Part shown: one piece after another, positions 57,981 through 64,000 of the stretch
How the letters are laid out: every line of letters starts with the position of its first letter
Numbering within the stretch: position 1 is the first letter of the stretch
Source: Methylacidimicrobium tartarophylax
GTDB lineage: Bacteria; Verrucomicrobiota; Verrucomicrobiia; Methylacidiphilales; Methylacidiphilaceae
Assembly: GCF_902143375.2 (NCBI RefSeq)
Contig: NZ_CABFVA020000002.1
Location: 1 to 64,000, forward strand
Direction of reading: 5' to 3'
DNA length: 64,000 nt
The notes under the pieces: model-generated
The model's input: the letters and a program-made list of their open reading frames with translations, nothing else
Database searches by the model: none
What the model was told of the DNA's origin: nothing
Position numbers and translations under genes: made by a program

Positions 57981-58709
57981 ATGATCCTTCTCCAAGAGCG
58001 CAAGACGCAAGCAATCTGGCATCGACCAGGAAGTCTTTTGGTGGAGCTTTCCGGTGCGGCACCACAAGCGTCCCTGCCGTCGACCGCCCCACTTCCGAAA
58101 AGCCGGGGAATCGATCCCTTCGAGGAAGACCCGACCGAGCGACGCGAGCGGACCGCCGGCTGGATGCTCTCCCTCGTTTTTCATGCGGCCCTCATTTTGG
58201 GTGCCGGGATCAGCTTGGCCCCCAAGATCAAGCAGGCAGCCGCACCTCTCTTCCCCCCGGCGTCGGTCGACCTCGTGGCGGCGCCGGAACCGATGAAACA
58301 GGCTGCTCCGGAGCCTCCGCCGGTCAAGCCCGACGACATGGCGCAAGCGGTGGTGCGCAAGCCGCAGCCGAAGAAAGTAATCATTGCTCCCAAGCCCAAG
58401 GCCGCTCCGGCGGTCGCGTCCGCCCCGCGCCCAACCCAACTCGCGCAACCCGACTACCTGCGCAATCCGCCGCCCGTCTATCCTGACACCGCCCGGCAGA
58501 AGAAGGAGCAGGGGGTGGTCTACGTCTGGGTGAAGATTTCGCCCGTGGGAGGAGTGGAAACGCTGCGAGTGGTCCGCAGCTCGGGCTTCTCGGATCTCGA
58601 TCAATCGGCGGCGGTCGCCGTCGAGCACTGGCGCTTTCATCCCGCCCTGGCGGGAGTGAAGCCGGTCGAGTCCCAGGCGGTCGTGCCGGTTCGCTTCTAC
58701 CTCCAGTAG
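57981..58709 (+). CDS. tonB: TonB-family energy transducer
   Basis: Transmits proton-motive energy from ExbB/ExbD to outer-membrane receptors. The 242-residue protein has a single helix (GWMLSLVFHAALILGAGISL, about 60-79), a Pro/Ala/Lys-rich periplasmic spacer, and a C-terminal TonB domain (YPDTARQKKEQGVVYVWVKI, then SSGFSDLDQSAAVAVEHWRF). The first 58 residues form an unusually long cytoplasmic extension. ATG 57981 has a strong AAAGGAG ahead. exbB and exbD are not in the window. It is 105 nt ahead of the receptor gene. Confidence 0.9.
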   Translation: MILLQERKTQAIWHRPGSLLVELSGAAPQASLPSTAPLPKSRGIDPFEEDPTERRERTAGWMLSLVFHAALILGAGISLAPKIKQAAAPLFPPASVDLVAAPEPMKQAAPEPPPVKPDDMAQAVVRKPQPKKVIIAPKPKAAPAVASAPRPTQLAQPDYLRNPPPVYPDTARQKKEQGVVYVWVKISPVGGVETLRVVRSSGFSDLDQSAAVAVEHWRFHPALAGVKPVESQAVVPVRFYLQ

Positions 58710-58814: not shown

Positions 58815-61625
58815 ATGCCCACGCTTCGCTTATCGCCAGGTGCGATTCTCGCCCTTCTTCTCCTGGTCGTGGGATTCCCTACTCCGGTCTTGAGCGCCGA
58901 ATCGGGCCCGGGCAGCCCGTCCGAGGCTGCGGCTCCTCCCGCCGAAGCAACCCAACCTGAAGCCGCACCGATGCCCGGTTCTGCCCAAGCTCCGGCGGAG
59001 AGCTCCCCCAGCCCCCCCGGGGGAACTCCGGAGGGGACCCAGGAAGGGGAACCGGCAGCGGCTCCGCCTTCCGGTGCGGCACCCGAAGCGCCCACCTCCG
59101 GACCGGAAGCTCCGCCCGCCGCCGCCACGCCCGAGACCGCTCCTCCCATCACCATTCCCCAGGGTCCCCTGCCCGGGGGAGAGCTTCCCGCCGGACTTGG
59201 CCCGGTGCTGGGCGAGGTCGACGTCTCGGGCGCCACCCCTTATGAGACGGTCGTCCCGGCCGAGGAGCCGGTTGGCGTGCTCGGGCCGGAAATGAGCGTC
59301 ATGGAGACTCCTCGGACCGTCCAGGTGGTGAACAAGGAGGAGATTCAGACCATTAACGCCCAATCGGTCAACGATCTGGCCGCCTTCGTCCCCGGGATCA
59401 ACCCGACGCAGATGACCGGGAGCCCCGTCTCGGAGCCGGTCATCCGGGGTCTTCCCGGGACAGCCTACCGGAACGGAATGCTCGTCGGCTTCAGCCAGTC
59501 GGCCCAGTGGGGCCCGCTCATGAACATGAACGCCTACGACAACCTCGACGTGGTCACCGGGCCGGTCAGTATTGTCTTCGGCCCCCAGGAGATGGCGGGG
59601 GGATTTGCCAACGAGGTCACCAAGCAGCCCTATTTCGACAAGTTCCGGGGAACCGCCAGCTACACGGGCGGCATGTACGACACCAACTTCTGGAACATCG
59701 ACATCGGGGGACCCATCATCAAGGATAAGCTCGCCTACCGAGCCGACTACTTCGGACAGGACGGCTACGCCCCCTACAACTACTATGACGGAGCCTACCT
59801 CCAGCGCCAGTGCGCTCTCTTCGCCCTCTCCGCCAAGCCTTACGACAACCTCTCGATCGACTTCAACACCGAGTTCGACGTCAACCACCTCAACACGGTC
59901 GCGGGCCTCAATCGCCCCGACCAAGCCCTGATCAGCGACGGCCTTTATCAGACCGGCTCGCTCGTTGGCTGGTACGGCCCTCCGGGCGTCCTTCACCCGG
60001 GGCTCGGCACCGCCCCCCCCGGCGCAGGCTACGCAATGGACTGGGGGCCGCAGGAGCCGATCAGCCGCCGGTCCAACCTCTTCGCCAATTCGGAGAATTC
60101 GACCCAGCAGCTCTACTACGTCGCCCAGGCGATCGAAACGCTCAAGATCGACGACAATCTCTCGCTCGTGAACAACTCGATGTTCGAGTACTTCAGCACG
60201 TATATCGATCAGGCGATTCCGTCTACCTTCTGGGCTGAGCTGCCGGCGGGCTACGACTTCGACGACCGGCTGGAGATCCGGGCCTCTTTCGATACCCCGA
60301 TCGGGAAGAGCAAGAAGCCCGCCACCGCCTTCGATCAGACCGCGGAGGAAGAAACTTCCACCTGGAAATTCCACCATGCGATCGATGCCGGCCTCGAGTT
60401 CCGCTTCTTCAGCGATACGGAATATTCCGGCGCCTGGCATTCGCCGATCAACATCTGGAACATGACCCAGCCGCTCACCTCGAGGGATTATTCTCCACTG
60501 ATTCCCTATTCCACGGCGATCTCGGCGCCCTATAGCAACCCGTATCTCACCGACATCCCGGTCCCCGGCTATCCGGGAGCCTACTACAACGTCTTCAACT
60601 ACCTCTCGACCTCAGACACCTTTTACGAACTCTCGCCTTTCTACCAGCACAAGCTCGACTTCACCGATCAGTGGAGTCTTCTGCTCTCGGCAAGGATGAA
60701 CGCCTACTTCATCCAAGCCTCCCCGCCGCCGGGAACCCCGAGCGATCTTTCGGCCATCGCCCCTTCTTTAGGTCTTCCGAGCTTGACCCCCACCTCGATG
60801 AGCATGGTCCAGCCCGAAGTCTCGATCAGTCCCAGCTACAAGCCCTTCCCGTGGATGACCAACTACTTCACCTTCTTCTACGGGCAGACCACCCTTCTGA
60901 GCCAGTTCGGGAGCTTCGCTCCCTCCTATCCCTCTTCCTACTACCATCAGAACAATTTTCTCTACGAACTGGGAACCAAGCTCAACCTCCTGCACGACCG
61001 GCTCTTCCTGGGGTTTTCCGCCTACATGCAGAGCGGCTACATCCCCGCGCAGGTCATCCCCGGGGGGCCGATCGCCACCGCCCAAGCGGACATCAGCGGG
61101 ATCCAGCTCAACGGCAGCTACCAGCCCAACCGGAACTTCTGGCTCAACTTCGGCTACGCCTACATCGCCGCACAGGAGCAGTGGGCGGGACTCTCCCAGG
61201 GTCCGTTGGCGGAGCAGCCCTACTCGACCTCGGTCGCACGTCAGTACAGCCTGCCGGTCGATCCGATGCTCAACATGGCGGCAGCCAACTACCAGTTCAT
61301 CGGCTTCCCGACCAACTACGGCAACCTGATGGCGACCTACAAGCTCGACAACGGCTTCGGCATCTCCCTCTGGGGGATCACCGAGAGCGGAAATTACATC
61401 TTCTACACCTATTCAACCCGGATTCCCACCTGGTATACCCTGAACGCCCGCATCTTTTATGCCGCCAAGCGGTGGGAAGCGAGTCTCTATATCTACAACG
61501 TGACCAATGAGCAGTATTGGCTTCCCGGAGCTCCCGGTTTCAGCAACGCACGCTACTTGAACTACGACTACATCGTTGCCCAGCTCCCTTTCTGGATCCA
61601 GGGAACGGTTCAGATCAATTTTTGA
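58815..61625 (+). CDS. TonB-dependent outer-membrane receptor
   Basis: A 936-residue outer-membrane transporter. A signal peptide (about 1-28, ending VLSA) is followed by a Pro/Ala/Gly/Glu-rich segment to about residue 125, not usual for such receptors. A TonB box candidate ETVV is at 144-147. The plug domain follows (METPRTVQVVNKEEIQTINA, NDLAAFVPGIN, VIRGLPGTAYRNG and a GPVSIVFGPQEMAGGFAN motif). The rest is beta-barrel sequence with Tyr/Phe-rich strands, ending GTVQINF with the terminal Phe needed for assembly. The ligand is unknown; siderophore-type receptors are the nearest by plug sequence. Paired with tonB. Confidence 0.88.
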   Translation: MPTLRLSPGAILALLLLVVGFPTPVLSAESGPGSPSEAAAPPAEATQPEAAPMPGSAQAPAESSPSPPGGTPEGTQEGEPAAAPPSGAAPEAPTSGPEAPPAAATPETAPPITIPQGPLPGGELPAGLGPVLGEVDVSGATPYETVVPAEEPVGVLGPEMSVMETPRTVQVVNKEEIQTINAQSVNDLAAFVPGINPTQMTGSPVSEPVIRGLPGTAYRNGMLVGFSQSAQWGPLMNMNAYDNLDVVTGPVSIVFGPQEMAGGFANEVTKQPYFDKFRGTASYTGGMYDTNFWNIDIGGPIIKDKLAYRADYFGQDGYAPYNYYDGAYLQRQCALFALSAKPYDNLSIDFNTEFDVNHLNTVAGLNRPDQALISDGLYQTGSLVGWYGPPGVLHPGLGTAPPGAGYAMDWGPQEPISRRSNLFANSENSTQQLYYVAQAIETLKIDDNLSLVNNSMFEYFSTYIDQAIPSTFWAELPAGYDFDDRLEIRASFDTPIGKSKKPATAFDQTAEEETSTWKFHHAIDAGLEFRFFSDTEYSGAWHSPINIWNMTQPLTSRDYSPLIPYSTAISAPYSNPYLTDIPVPGYPGAYYNVFNYLSTSDTFYELSPFYQHKLDFTDQWSLLLSARMNAYFIQASPPPGTPSDLSAIAPSLGLPSLTPTSMSMVQPEVSISPSYKPFPWMTNYFTFFYGQTTLLSQFGSFAPSYPSSYYHQNNFLYELGTKLNLLHDRLFLGFSAYMQSGYIPAQVIPGGPIATAQADISGIQLNGSYQPNRNFWLNFGYAYIAAQEQWAGLSQGPLAEQPYSTSVARQYSLPVDPMLNMAAANYQFIGFPTNYGNLMATYKLDNGFGISLWGITESGNYIFYTYSTRIPTWYTLNARIFYAAKRWEASLYIYNVTNEQYWLPGAPGFSNARYLNYDYIVAQLPFWIQGTVQINF

Positions 61626-61696: not shown

Positions 61697-62245
61697 TTAC
61701 TTGCGGGAATGGTTTCCCGCAGCTTGTCCCTCGGCGGCGGCCTCCTCATCGGACTTCACGATCAGCTCATCGAGCAGAGGAGCCATCGCGAGCTCCAAGC
61801 GAAGAAGGGAAGCCTTGCGAGGATCCCCCTCCCCGCAGCTCGACATTCCGGCAAAGAGGTAAAACGAGAGTTCCTCACGATCCGTCTCGGAGAGCGTGCG
61901 CAACATCCGCACGGCAAGAGCCGGATCCGCCGAAACCGCATACGCGGTCAGCATCGCGGCCTCCACATCCTCGATCGCCAACAGCTCTCTTGCTCCCAGA
62001 AGGAGCGCGCGCATCGTCGCCTCGGCTTTGGGCCCACCCTCGACCAGAGAGGCTCGAACTTGCCGCAAGAGCGGCCGAAGCCTCTGGTCGAGCAGGCCGG
62101 GATACTCGGGAAGCGGGGCTTGGCGCAGGGCAGCTCCGGCGCTCTTGAGTTCCGATTCGAAATAGGAAGGATTTTCGGCCGCCCGGAGCGGGCCTCCGAC
62201 CAAGGCGATCCCGCACAGGCCGATGCACATCCATTGCTTCCTCAT
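61697..62245 (-). CDS. small exported protein after hpnE, unknown
   Basis: A 182-residue protein with a signal peptide (MRKQWMCIGLCGIALVGGPL, cleaved after about RAA) and an alpha-helical mature part. It contains two near-repeats of the kind LLxAREL-x-AIEDVEAAML and ELSFYLFAGMS, suggesting a helical repeat fold. The start overlaps the HpnD-HpnE stop by 4 nt (ATGA), so the two are translationally coupled. A periplasmic role linked to hopanoid or isoprenoid lipids is possible but unproven. No family was recognised. Confidence 0.7.
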   Translation of the reverse strand: MRKQWMCIGLCGIALVGGPLRAAENPSYFESELKSAGAALRQAPLPEYPGLLDQRLRPLLRQVRASLVEGGPKAEATMRALLLGARELLAIEDVEAAMLTAYAVSADPALAVRMLRTLSETDREELSFYLFAGMSSCGEGDPRKASLLRLELAMAPLLDELIVKSDEEAAAEGQAAGNHSRK

Positions 62246-64000
62246 GATCCCCTTCGCTCTTGTCTGGCCTCCGCCATCCCCCATTCTCCGCTGGGGACCG
62301 GCGGCAATGCCTTCTCCTCTCCATCCGCCCGGTTCATCGCCCGGACGGCCGAGATTCCACTCTGAACGGCACCTTCTATGGTGGCGGGGAGACCGGTGTT
62401 TGTCCAATCTCCGGCAATCCAGAAGTTGCGCCACTCGGTCCGCGGTCCGGGCCGCATCGCGCATGCCTCCGGGCTGAGGGAAGGAGTACCCCCTTGCGCA
62501 CGATAAAGAAAGGAATGGAGGAGATGGACTTCGGCGGCTCCCGGCAACCGTTGCCGGATCTCCTCCACGACTCGATCCGCAACGGCCTCCCGCGAAAGCT
62601 CTTTCCACGACTGGGCAGCGCTGATGACGACTGCGTAGGCATGGCCGCGAGTCGCCGCCTTCCCCAAGATCTCTTCACGGCAAAAGAGCCAATGGACGGG
62701 CGAGTCGAGGAAGCCGACTACGATCTCCCGGGTGAGCGGCCGATCCGTCCAGAGGTAGAGGTTGAGGATCGGTTCCTCCCCGATGGAGCGGCAGATCTTT
62801 TGCAGTGCGCTTCCCTCGGGCAGGAGGGAGCGCAGGGCGTTCCACGGGAGGGCGCTGACCGCCTGATCGACCTCCCCGCGCTCTCCGCAGGCATCCTCGA
62901 TGGCCTCCAGCCGGCCGCCGGAAAAGAGGAGCCGGCTCACCGGGGAACGACAGGAGAGGCTCCCTCCACAAAAGCGCAGAAGTCGTTCGCACTCCTTGGC
63001 CAATAGATCGCCGAGATCCCCTCGGCAAAAGACCAGGGCTGAATCCTTTCGGCTCCCCAAGAGAGACCGGCGGATGACGGCCACCAGCATCCGGGCCGAC
63101 GCGCGGGAAAGATCCTGGTTGCAGGCGGCCAGGCAGAGGGGCTCCCAAAGTGCCCGGACGATCCCTTGCGGCTGCTTTCTGCGCCGAAGCCAGCGTTCCG
63201 CGGTTTCTTCGGGGAGAGGAGCCCGACCGAAAAGCAACGAGCCGATCAGCCGGATTGCCGCCCAGCGATCTTTCCACGAGATCTCGCGATAGCCGAGAAA
63301 GGCTCCCAGAAGATGCCAAGGAGAAGGGAGAGGCCAAGCTTCCAGGAGGCTTTCGCCCGCTGCACCGCGAAAAGGAATCCGGAGCGGATCGATCCAGAGT
63401 AACTTCTTCTCCGCACCCAAGGAACGGAGCAGACGGAGAGTCTCCCGGTAGCAGCCCATGAGGAGGTGCTGCCCGGTATCGAGCCTCTCGCCCGACTTTG
63501 CCTCGAGGAAGCTCCCCGCCCGGCCGCCGACTTGCGCTCGCGCCTCCCGCAGCGCAACTCGATCTCCGGAGAGCGTGGCCTCCACTGCGGCCGCCATGCC
63601 CGCAAAGCCGGCTCCCAAGACCATCACCCGCCGGGGAGGATTCCAGGAGAGACGGCGCTGACGGGAAAAGGCAAAGAGCGCCGCAGCCATCCTTCCGGCG
63701 CGCTCGAACTTTCCCATCCGGCTTGCGCCGGAGAAGATCCGAAACTCCGCCTTCCGAATCTTCTCAAGGATGGCTTCGTAGACTGCTCGCATCGCCTCGG
63801 AGGCGACGAGCCTCCGCTGATCCTCGGGATGAATCCACCGATGTGACCGAGCAAAATAGTGCTTCGCACGAAGGTATTGAAAGAGGCAGAGGTCGTGCAT
63901 CTCTTCGCTCCACCTCCCGAGCAGAACATCCTCCACGCCGAGACCGAATTCGGCGAGCTCCTCCTCCGGCAGGTAAACCCGGCCGACGGCAGCATCCTTC
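62242..64000 (-). CDS. hpnE: HpnD-HpnE fusion: presqualene/squalene synthase domain joined to hydroxysqualene dehydroxylase (5' end cut)
   Basis: The frame is open to the right edge of the window. The first visible residues GRVYLPEEELAEFG and the next about 90 (YLRAKHYFARSHRWIHPED, then MRAVYEAILEKIRKAEF) match the C-terminal part of a squalene/phytoene synthase (HpnD type). With no stop, SWNPPRRVMVLGAGFAGMAA opens an FAD domain of about 470 residues with VGGRAGSFLEAKSGERLDTGQH and the closing FWIAGDWTNTGLPATIEGAV, the hydroxysqualene dehydroxylase HpnE. HpnC/HpnD/HpnE together make squalene for hopanoids. Only the end of the HpnD part is visible. The last 4 nt overlap the next gene. Confidence 0.85.
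   Translation of the reverse strand, partial: KDAAVGRVYLPEEELAEFGLGVEDVLLGRWSEEMHDLCLFQYLRAKHYFARSHRWIHPEDQRRLVASEAMRAVYEAILEKIRKAEFRIFSGASRMGKFERAGRMAAALFAFSRQRRLSWNPPRRVMVLGAGFAGMAAAVEATLSGDRVALREARAQVGGRAGSFLEAKSGERLDTGQHLLMGCYRETLRLLRSLGAEKKLLWIDPLRIPFRGAAGESLLEAWPLPSPWHLLGAFLGYREISWKDRWAAIRLIGSLLFGRAPLPEETAERWLRRRKQPQGIVRALWEPLCLAACNQDLSRASARMLVAVIRRSLLGSRKDSALVFCRGDLGDLLAKECERLLRFCGGSLSCRSPVSRLLFSGGRLEAIEDACGERGEVDQAVSALPWNALRSLLPEGSALQKICRSIGEEPILNLYLWTDRPLTREIVVGFLDSPVHWLFCREEILGKAATRGHAYAVVISAAQSWKELSREAVADRVVEEIRQRLPGAAEVHLLHSFLYRAQGGTPSLSPEACAMRPGPRTEWRNFWIAGDWTNTGLPATIEGAVQSGISAVRAMNRADGEEKALPPVPSGEWGMAEARQERRGS

Follow-up and report, generated by a model that had tools for sequence, protein, structure and literature searches.

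Fusion of the squalene-pathway genes hpnD and hpnE is a conserved trait of a lineage within the Verrucomicrobiota

In Zymomonas and Rhodopseudomonas, squalene is made by three separate enzymes that act in the order HpnD, HpnC, HpnE (PMC7839719). HpnD produces presqualene diphosphate, HpnC is the hydroxysqualene synthase, and HpnE is the hydroxysqualene dehydroxylase that yields squalene (PMC10152446). The genome studied here encodes the same three families, which presumably carry out the same chemistry, but HpnD and HpnE form one polypeptide instead of separate enzymes, and hpnC is unlinked from the fused gene throughout the family to which the genome belongs. The HpnD and HpnE enzymes themselves are well known; their fusion, referred to as HpnDE, is the variant part.

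Gene fusions have been described for related enzymes. HpnCD fusions occur in subdivision 2 of the Acidobacteria and in some Actinobacteria and Alphaproteobacteria (PMC5462960). They resemble HpnDE in joining two neighboring squalene-pathway genes, but HpnCD combines consecutive steps, whereas HpnDE combines steps 1 and 3 and is found in a different phylum. Carotenoid synthesis offers CrtIB in the rhodopsin operons of Opitutales (PMC10284914) and CrtIBY in thraustochytrids (PMC10016063), in which a head-to-head prenyl synthase is likewise fused to an FAD-dependent enzyme of the amine-oxidase fold from the same pathway; these fusions differ from HpnDE in having CrtI first, the reverse order, in acting on C40 carotenoid substrates, and in joining consecutive steps. 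The hpnCDE genes of acidophilic methanotrophic Verrucomicrobia very probably correspond, in related organisms, to the genes analyzed here; the main text of that report lists them as "hpnCDE," and the words "fused" and "hpnD" are absent from it (PMC9543262). We found no report of an HpnD-HpnE fusion in the open-access papers searched, and the fused proteins are very probably already present in sequence databases under domain names.

The window, which is the whole stretch of DNA analyzed, covers 64,000 bases of a contig that extends to base 75782, and the source genome totals 2.33 Mb. On the minus strand, the hpnDE frame (62242 to 64000) is open from the window edge to a TGA at 62244 to 62242. 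Reading the contig past base 64000 located the start of HpnD, an ATG at contig base 64497, so that the complete gene is a single 751-amino-acid (aa) open reading frame (ORF) (L003:743-2998, minus strand; G000:C2:62245-64497). Both domains are complete in this frame, which bears out the proposal of the initial annotation that HpnD and HpnE are encoded as one continuous polypeptide. Based on HMM bounds, the HpnD domain comprises residues 2 to 271 (Pfam, 11 to 257), and its C-terminal part occupies 63685 to 64000 of the window. It is followed by an interdomain linker of 16 residues (272 to 287; 63637 to 63684), the HpnE domain with its FAD amine-oxidase fold (residues 288 to 723; 62329 to 63636), and a C-terminal tail (residues 724 to 751; 62245 to 62328), all on the minus strand. 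The junction had been placed at around 63670 to 63710; it lies slightly to the left, at about 63637 to 63684.

The Pfam matches of the protein consist of SQS_PSY at residues 11 to 257 (2.6e-70) and Amino_oxidase at residues 298 to 721 (1.2e-33). The HpnE model (NCBIfam TIGR03467) scores 378 bits against a curated cutoff of 283.05, matching residues 291 to 720 (62338 to 63627 on the genome) over model positions 1 to 427 of 430. The HpnD model (TIGR03465) scores 268.9 bits, about 10 below its equivalog cutoff of 278.6, and is the top synthase family by about 100 bits; fused proteins of the same clade (L052, L055, and L058) exceed the cutoff. The HpnC model (TIGR03464) reaches 169.4 bits on the fused protein, under its cutoff of 250.45. 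Among 16 aligned fused proteins, the Asp-rich catalytic motifs are invariant (D43/D44/D47 and N160/D164/D168; residues 43 to 47 and 160 to 168, mostly past the window edge), as are the FAD-binding GxGxxG motif (residues 295 to 300, with glycines 295, 297, and 300; 63598 to 63615, minus strand) and the C-terminal AGDW...E708...SG FAD motif. An AlphaFold2 model built from only 16 sequences has a pLDDT of 89.9 and a pTM of 0.90, with low confidence solely in the C-terminal tail (pLDDT of approximately 35). Judged by family scores and motifs, the hpnDE product is an HpnD-HpnE fusion with two predicted catalytic activities.

The remainder of the pathway is found elsewhere in the source genome. Only two of its proteins belong to PF00494, and a single HpnE exceeds the cutoff, so the fusion is its sole HpnD and its sole HpnE. 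The separate, single-copy HpnC (P0002) scores 316.9 bits against the cutoff of 250.45 and is encoded on a different contig from hpnDE (G000:C26:8558-9373). A squalene-hopene cyclase (SHC; 457.7 bits) and HpnH (542.9 bits) are also encoded. This context bears on the alternative that the fusion makes C30 carotenoids through a CrtM/CrtN-like synthase and desaturase instead of squalene. HpnD and CrtM belong to the same superfamily, as do HpnE and CrtN; PDB sequence matches to the HpnD part include CrtM structures as well as HpnC structures, the top PDB match of the HpnE part by Foldseek is rice phytoene desaturase, and, as noted above, crtIB fusions in the reverse order have been reported from Verrucomicrobia (PMC10284914). 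A published residue difference separates HpnD (Arg15) from CrtM (Ser19) (PMC7839719); we dropped it as a diagnostic because its position is ambiguous in our alignments. Against a carotenoid product stand the 378 bits of the oxidoreductase part with the HpnE model, compared with only 34 bits for the crtI family, and the genomic setting, in which no other gene is of the HpnD or HpnE type and HpnC, SHC, and HpnH are all encoded. We regard carotenoid synthesis as very unlikely.

HpnC is retained alongside the fusion almost everywhere. It scores over the cutoff in 41 of 44 fusion genomes, and SHC is present in 43 of 44; HpnC is partial or broken in G018 and G028, and G048, which carries an apparently independent fusion, has no HpnC over the cutoff. 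The near-universal retention of HpnC implies that the fusion acts beside HpnC instead of taking its place. G028 had offered a candidate HpnC-HpnD-HpnE triple fusion, with the first part of hpnC continuing into hpnDE in a 1,038-aa frame (L078:1368-4481, contig C79), which we rejected because hpnC there is broken: query residues 17 to 247 match one frame and residues 323 to 348 another, giving the look of a broken gene or a MAG error. The initial annotation had suggested that the fusion would keep hydroxysqualene in place between the final two reactions, which does not agree with the pathway, since HpnD and HpnE catalyze steps 1 and 3. As the HpnC reaction lies between them, direct hand-over from HpnD to HpnE is not expected, and the fusion alone cannot retain hydroxysqualene unless HpnC docks.

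The continuous hpnDE frame is present in 7 of 7 genomes of the genus and 13 of 13 of the family. A class-wide search of 189 genomes with the HpnE model returned 38 genomes over the curated cutoff, in 37 of which the match and HpnD share a frame of 724 to 1,065 aa. The remaining genome (G021) has the gene split by contig ends, with HpnD closing one contig and HpnE opening another. No stand-alone HpnE over the cutoff was identified among the 189 class genomes, and a phylum-wide sample added one further fused genome (G352) and none with separate genes. The fusion is distributed across the family of the source genome (f1), seven other families of the order (f2 to f6, f8, and f9), and three further families of the class (f21, f24, and f45), with named relatives including "Candidatus Methylacidiphilaceae" UBA1321, Methylacidiphilum sp. 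Phi, and a Puniceicoccales MAG. Judging from its relatives and a G+C content of 60.6%, the source genome probably belongs to Methylacidimicrobium or something close to it. One genome, G033, carries a stand-alone HpnE-like gene on contig C53 that scores 227.7 bits, below the cutoff; the fused protein of the same genome (L070:2525-4936) is 804 aa long, its HpnE domain being interrupted by additional sequence.

The occurrence of the same fusion across the order and several other verrucomicrobial families indicates a real, old, and lineage-specific trait. One alternative was an assembly or sequencing indel that artificially joined two genes. Close relatives with a stop codon and a new start at this site would have pointed to it; none of the fused genes has such a pair. 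The identical frame recurs in independent genomes and many families, including single-contig genomes (G005, G006, G007, G010, G011, G012, and G019), and an artifact of this kind has practically no chance of being correct. The fusion had also been described as a departure from standard gene organization. Separate hpnC, hpnD, and hpnE genes are indeed usual elsewhere, but the departure belongs to a whole clade and is not a quirk of a single genome.

A continuous ORF could still yield two enzymes through internal initiation or cleavage of the linker. In-frame ATG codons do lie near the linker in most members of the genus, but they are missing near the junction from most fused relatives outside it, and among 40 fused genes only 1 combines a start with a suitably spaced Shine-Dalgarno-like site, so that no conserved internal start exists at the junction in this set. 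The linker is also short and conserved, at 14 to 19 aa in the main clade, with 21 aa in L064 and 24 aa in L098. Within the genus, its dN/dS of about 0.05 to 0.15 resembles that of the domains, although these are rough values from few linker sites, and the linker is under purifying selection. The low-confidence C-terminal tail evolves fast, with a dN/dS of about 0.8 to 1.3 within the genus. Production of two enzymes from the fused frame is thus highly improbable.

We favor a joint reading, with a probability of roughly 0.87, of a bifunctional HpnDE that works with a separate HpnC to supply squalene for hopanoids, arose mainly once, and has been retained, with 1:1 supply and co-location as its most likely benefit. 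The N-terminal HpnD domain would convert two molecules of farnesyl diphosphate to presqualene diphosphate, the separate HpnC would convert this to hydroxysqualene, and the C-terminal FAD-dependent HpnE domain would strip the hydroxyl group to give squalene, from which the squalene-hopene cyclase would form hopanoids. Neighboring hpnD and hpnE genes would have been joined in frame, mainly once in Verrucomicrobiota, and kept since. The most likely effect would be that the first and last enzymes of the pathway are made in a constant 1:1 ratio and kept in the same place, rather than that one passes its product straight to the other. The single frame, its conservation, the family assignments, the intact motifs, and the single-copy status are computed results, whereas the catalytic activities, the stoichiometry, and the benefit are predictions.

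A more elaborate possibility is that HpnDE serves as a two-ended scaffold on which HpnC docks, with both intermediates handed from HpnD to HpnC to HpnE within a squalene-making complex. The fusion skips the middle enzyme, and yet HpnC is retained in nearly all fusion genomes; the linker is conserved in length and sequence, and the pTM of the predicted structure may point to a fixed arrangement of the domains. In most other fusion families, moreover, hpnC lies directly upstream of the fused gene. However, co-occurrence of HpnC is expected from the pathway alone, and hpnC is unlinked from hpnDE throughout family f1, at distances of about 480 kb in G001 and G005 and about 240 kb in G006. This pattern suggests that the fusion predates the separation of hpnC from the locus, or that hpnC became unlinked once HpnD and HpnE were already joined. 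We consider the scaffold doubtful, though worth keeping in view; it extends the main explanation and does not contradict its enzyme assignments. If true, it would provide a bacterial analogue of the one-enzyme eukaryotic squalene synthase, reached by another route.

Outside the Verrucomicrobiota, HpnD and HpnE genes remain separate in the loci surveyed. Our scan of a genome collection covered the best 80 of at least 594 candidates, a biased sample, in which 53 loci contained both HpnD and HpnE; none of these 53 loci carried a fusion of the two. The loci belong to Pseudomonadota, Nitrospirota, Acidobacteriota, Myxococcota, Planctomycetota, Omnitrophota, Elusimicrobiota, and Ignavibacteriota. 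The two genes mostly adjoin, with a median of 18 nucleotides (nt) from the HpnD stop to the HpnE domain, and a predicted overlap of the two is present in 14 of the 53 loci. Given an adjacent hpnC-hpnD-hpnE gene order, fusion of the latter two would be a small step. In one of the 53 loci, from an Omnitrophota MAG (L112:3950-5677), a single frame of 576 aa encodes both HpnC and HpnD; the Acidobacteria report of HpnCD fusions does not mention this phylum (PMC5462960).

The main set of fused proteins forms one clade in both the HpnD domain tree (97/93) and the HpnE domain tree (98/98), which argues for one main origin of the fusion in Verrucomicrobiota as the likely history. The fused HpnD domains have their closest relatives among verrucomicrobial synthases that stand alone. 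For the acidophilic methanotrophic Verrucomicrobia, hpnCDE has been proposed as gained from other acidophilic lineages (PMC9543262), and our hpnD tree, with its limited sampling, sits uneasily with that proposal, for hpnD at least. One fused protein, L064 (G048:C28, L064:2013-4262), from another family of the class, falls outside the main clade in both domain trees. Its HpnD part clusters with L074, another verrucomicrobial synthase, its HpnE part is long-branched, and its scores of 229.6 bits for HpnD and 200 bits for HpnE are both under the cutoffs. From its placement in the two trees, L064 looks like a second, independent fusion.

These observations have consequences for both enzymology and annotation. 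HpnDE offers a natural and long-conserved system in which to ask whether the squalene enzymes of bacteria work together as a complex, and the fusion of a nonconsecutive pair predicts either a docking role for HpnC or a plain benefit of stoichiometry. Within Verrucomicrobiota, the presence of the fusion can mark genomes for hopanoid synthesis, and annotation pipelines designed for two separate genes may be misled by it. Combined with hpnC, hpnDE could also be used directly as a one-gene component for producing squalene.

The gene downstream of hpnDE had been considered a possible member of the same pathway. This 182-aa ORF (61697 to 62245, minus strand), which begins with an N-terminal signal-like stretch, does overlap the hpnDE stop by 4 nt (ATGA), as initially annotated. 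Pathway membership of the exported protein finds no such backing: the ORF has no Pfam or NCBIfam match, it follows hpnDE in 7 of 7 genomes of the genus and adjoins it in this genus only, and even there conservation does not extend to the 4-nt overlap. Based on reading of their translations, the neighboring genes convergent with hpnDE encode a TonB-like protein (57981 to 58709, plus strand) and a 936-aa TonB-dependent-receptor-like protein (58815 to 61625, plus strand), and the divergent neighbor upstream of hpnDE (L003:3254-4225, plus strand; contig positions of about 64753 to 65724) has the look of the deoxyhypusine synthase family.
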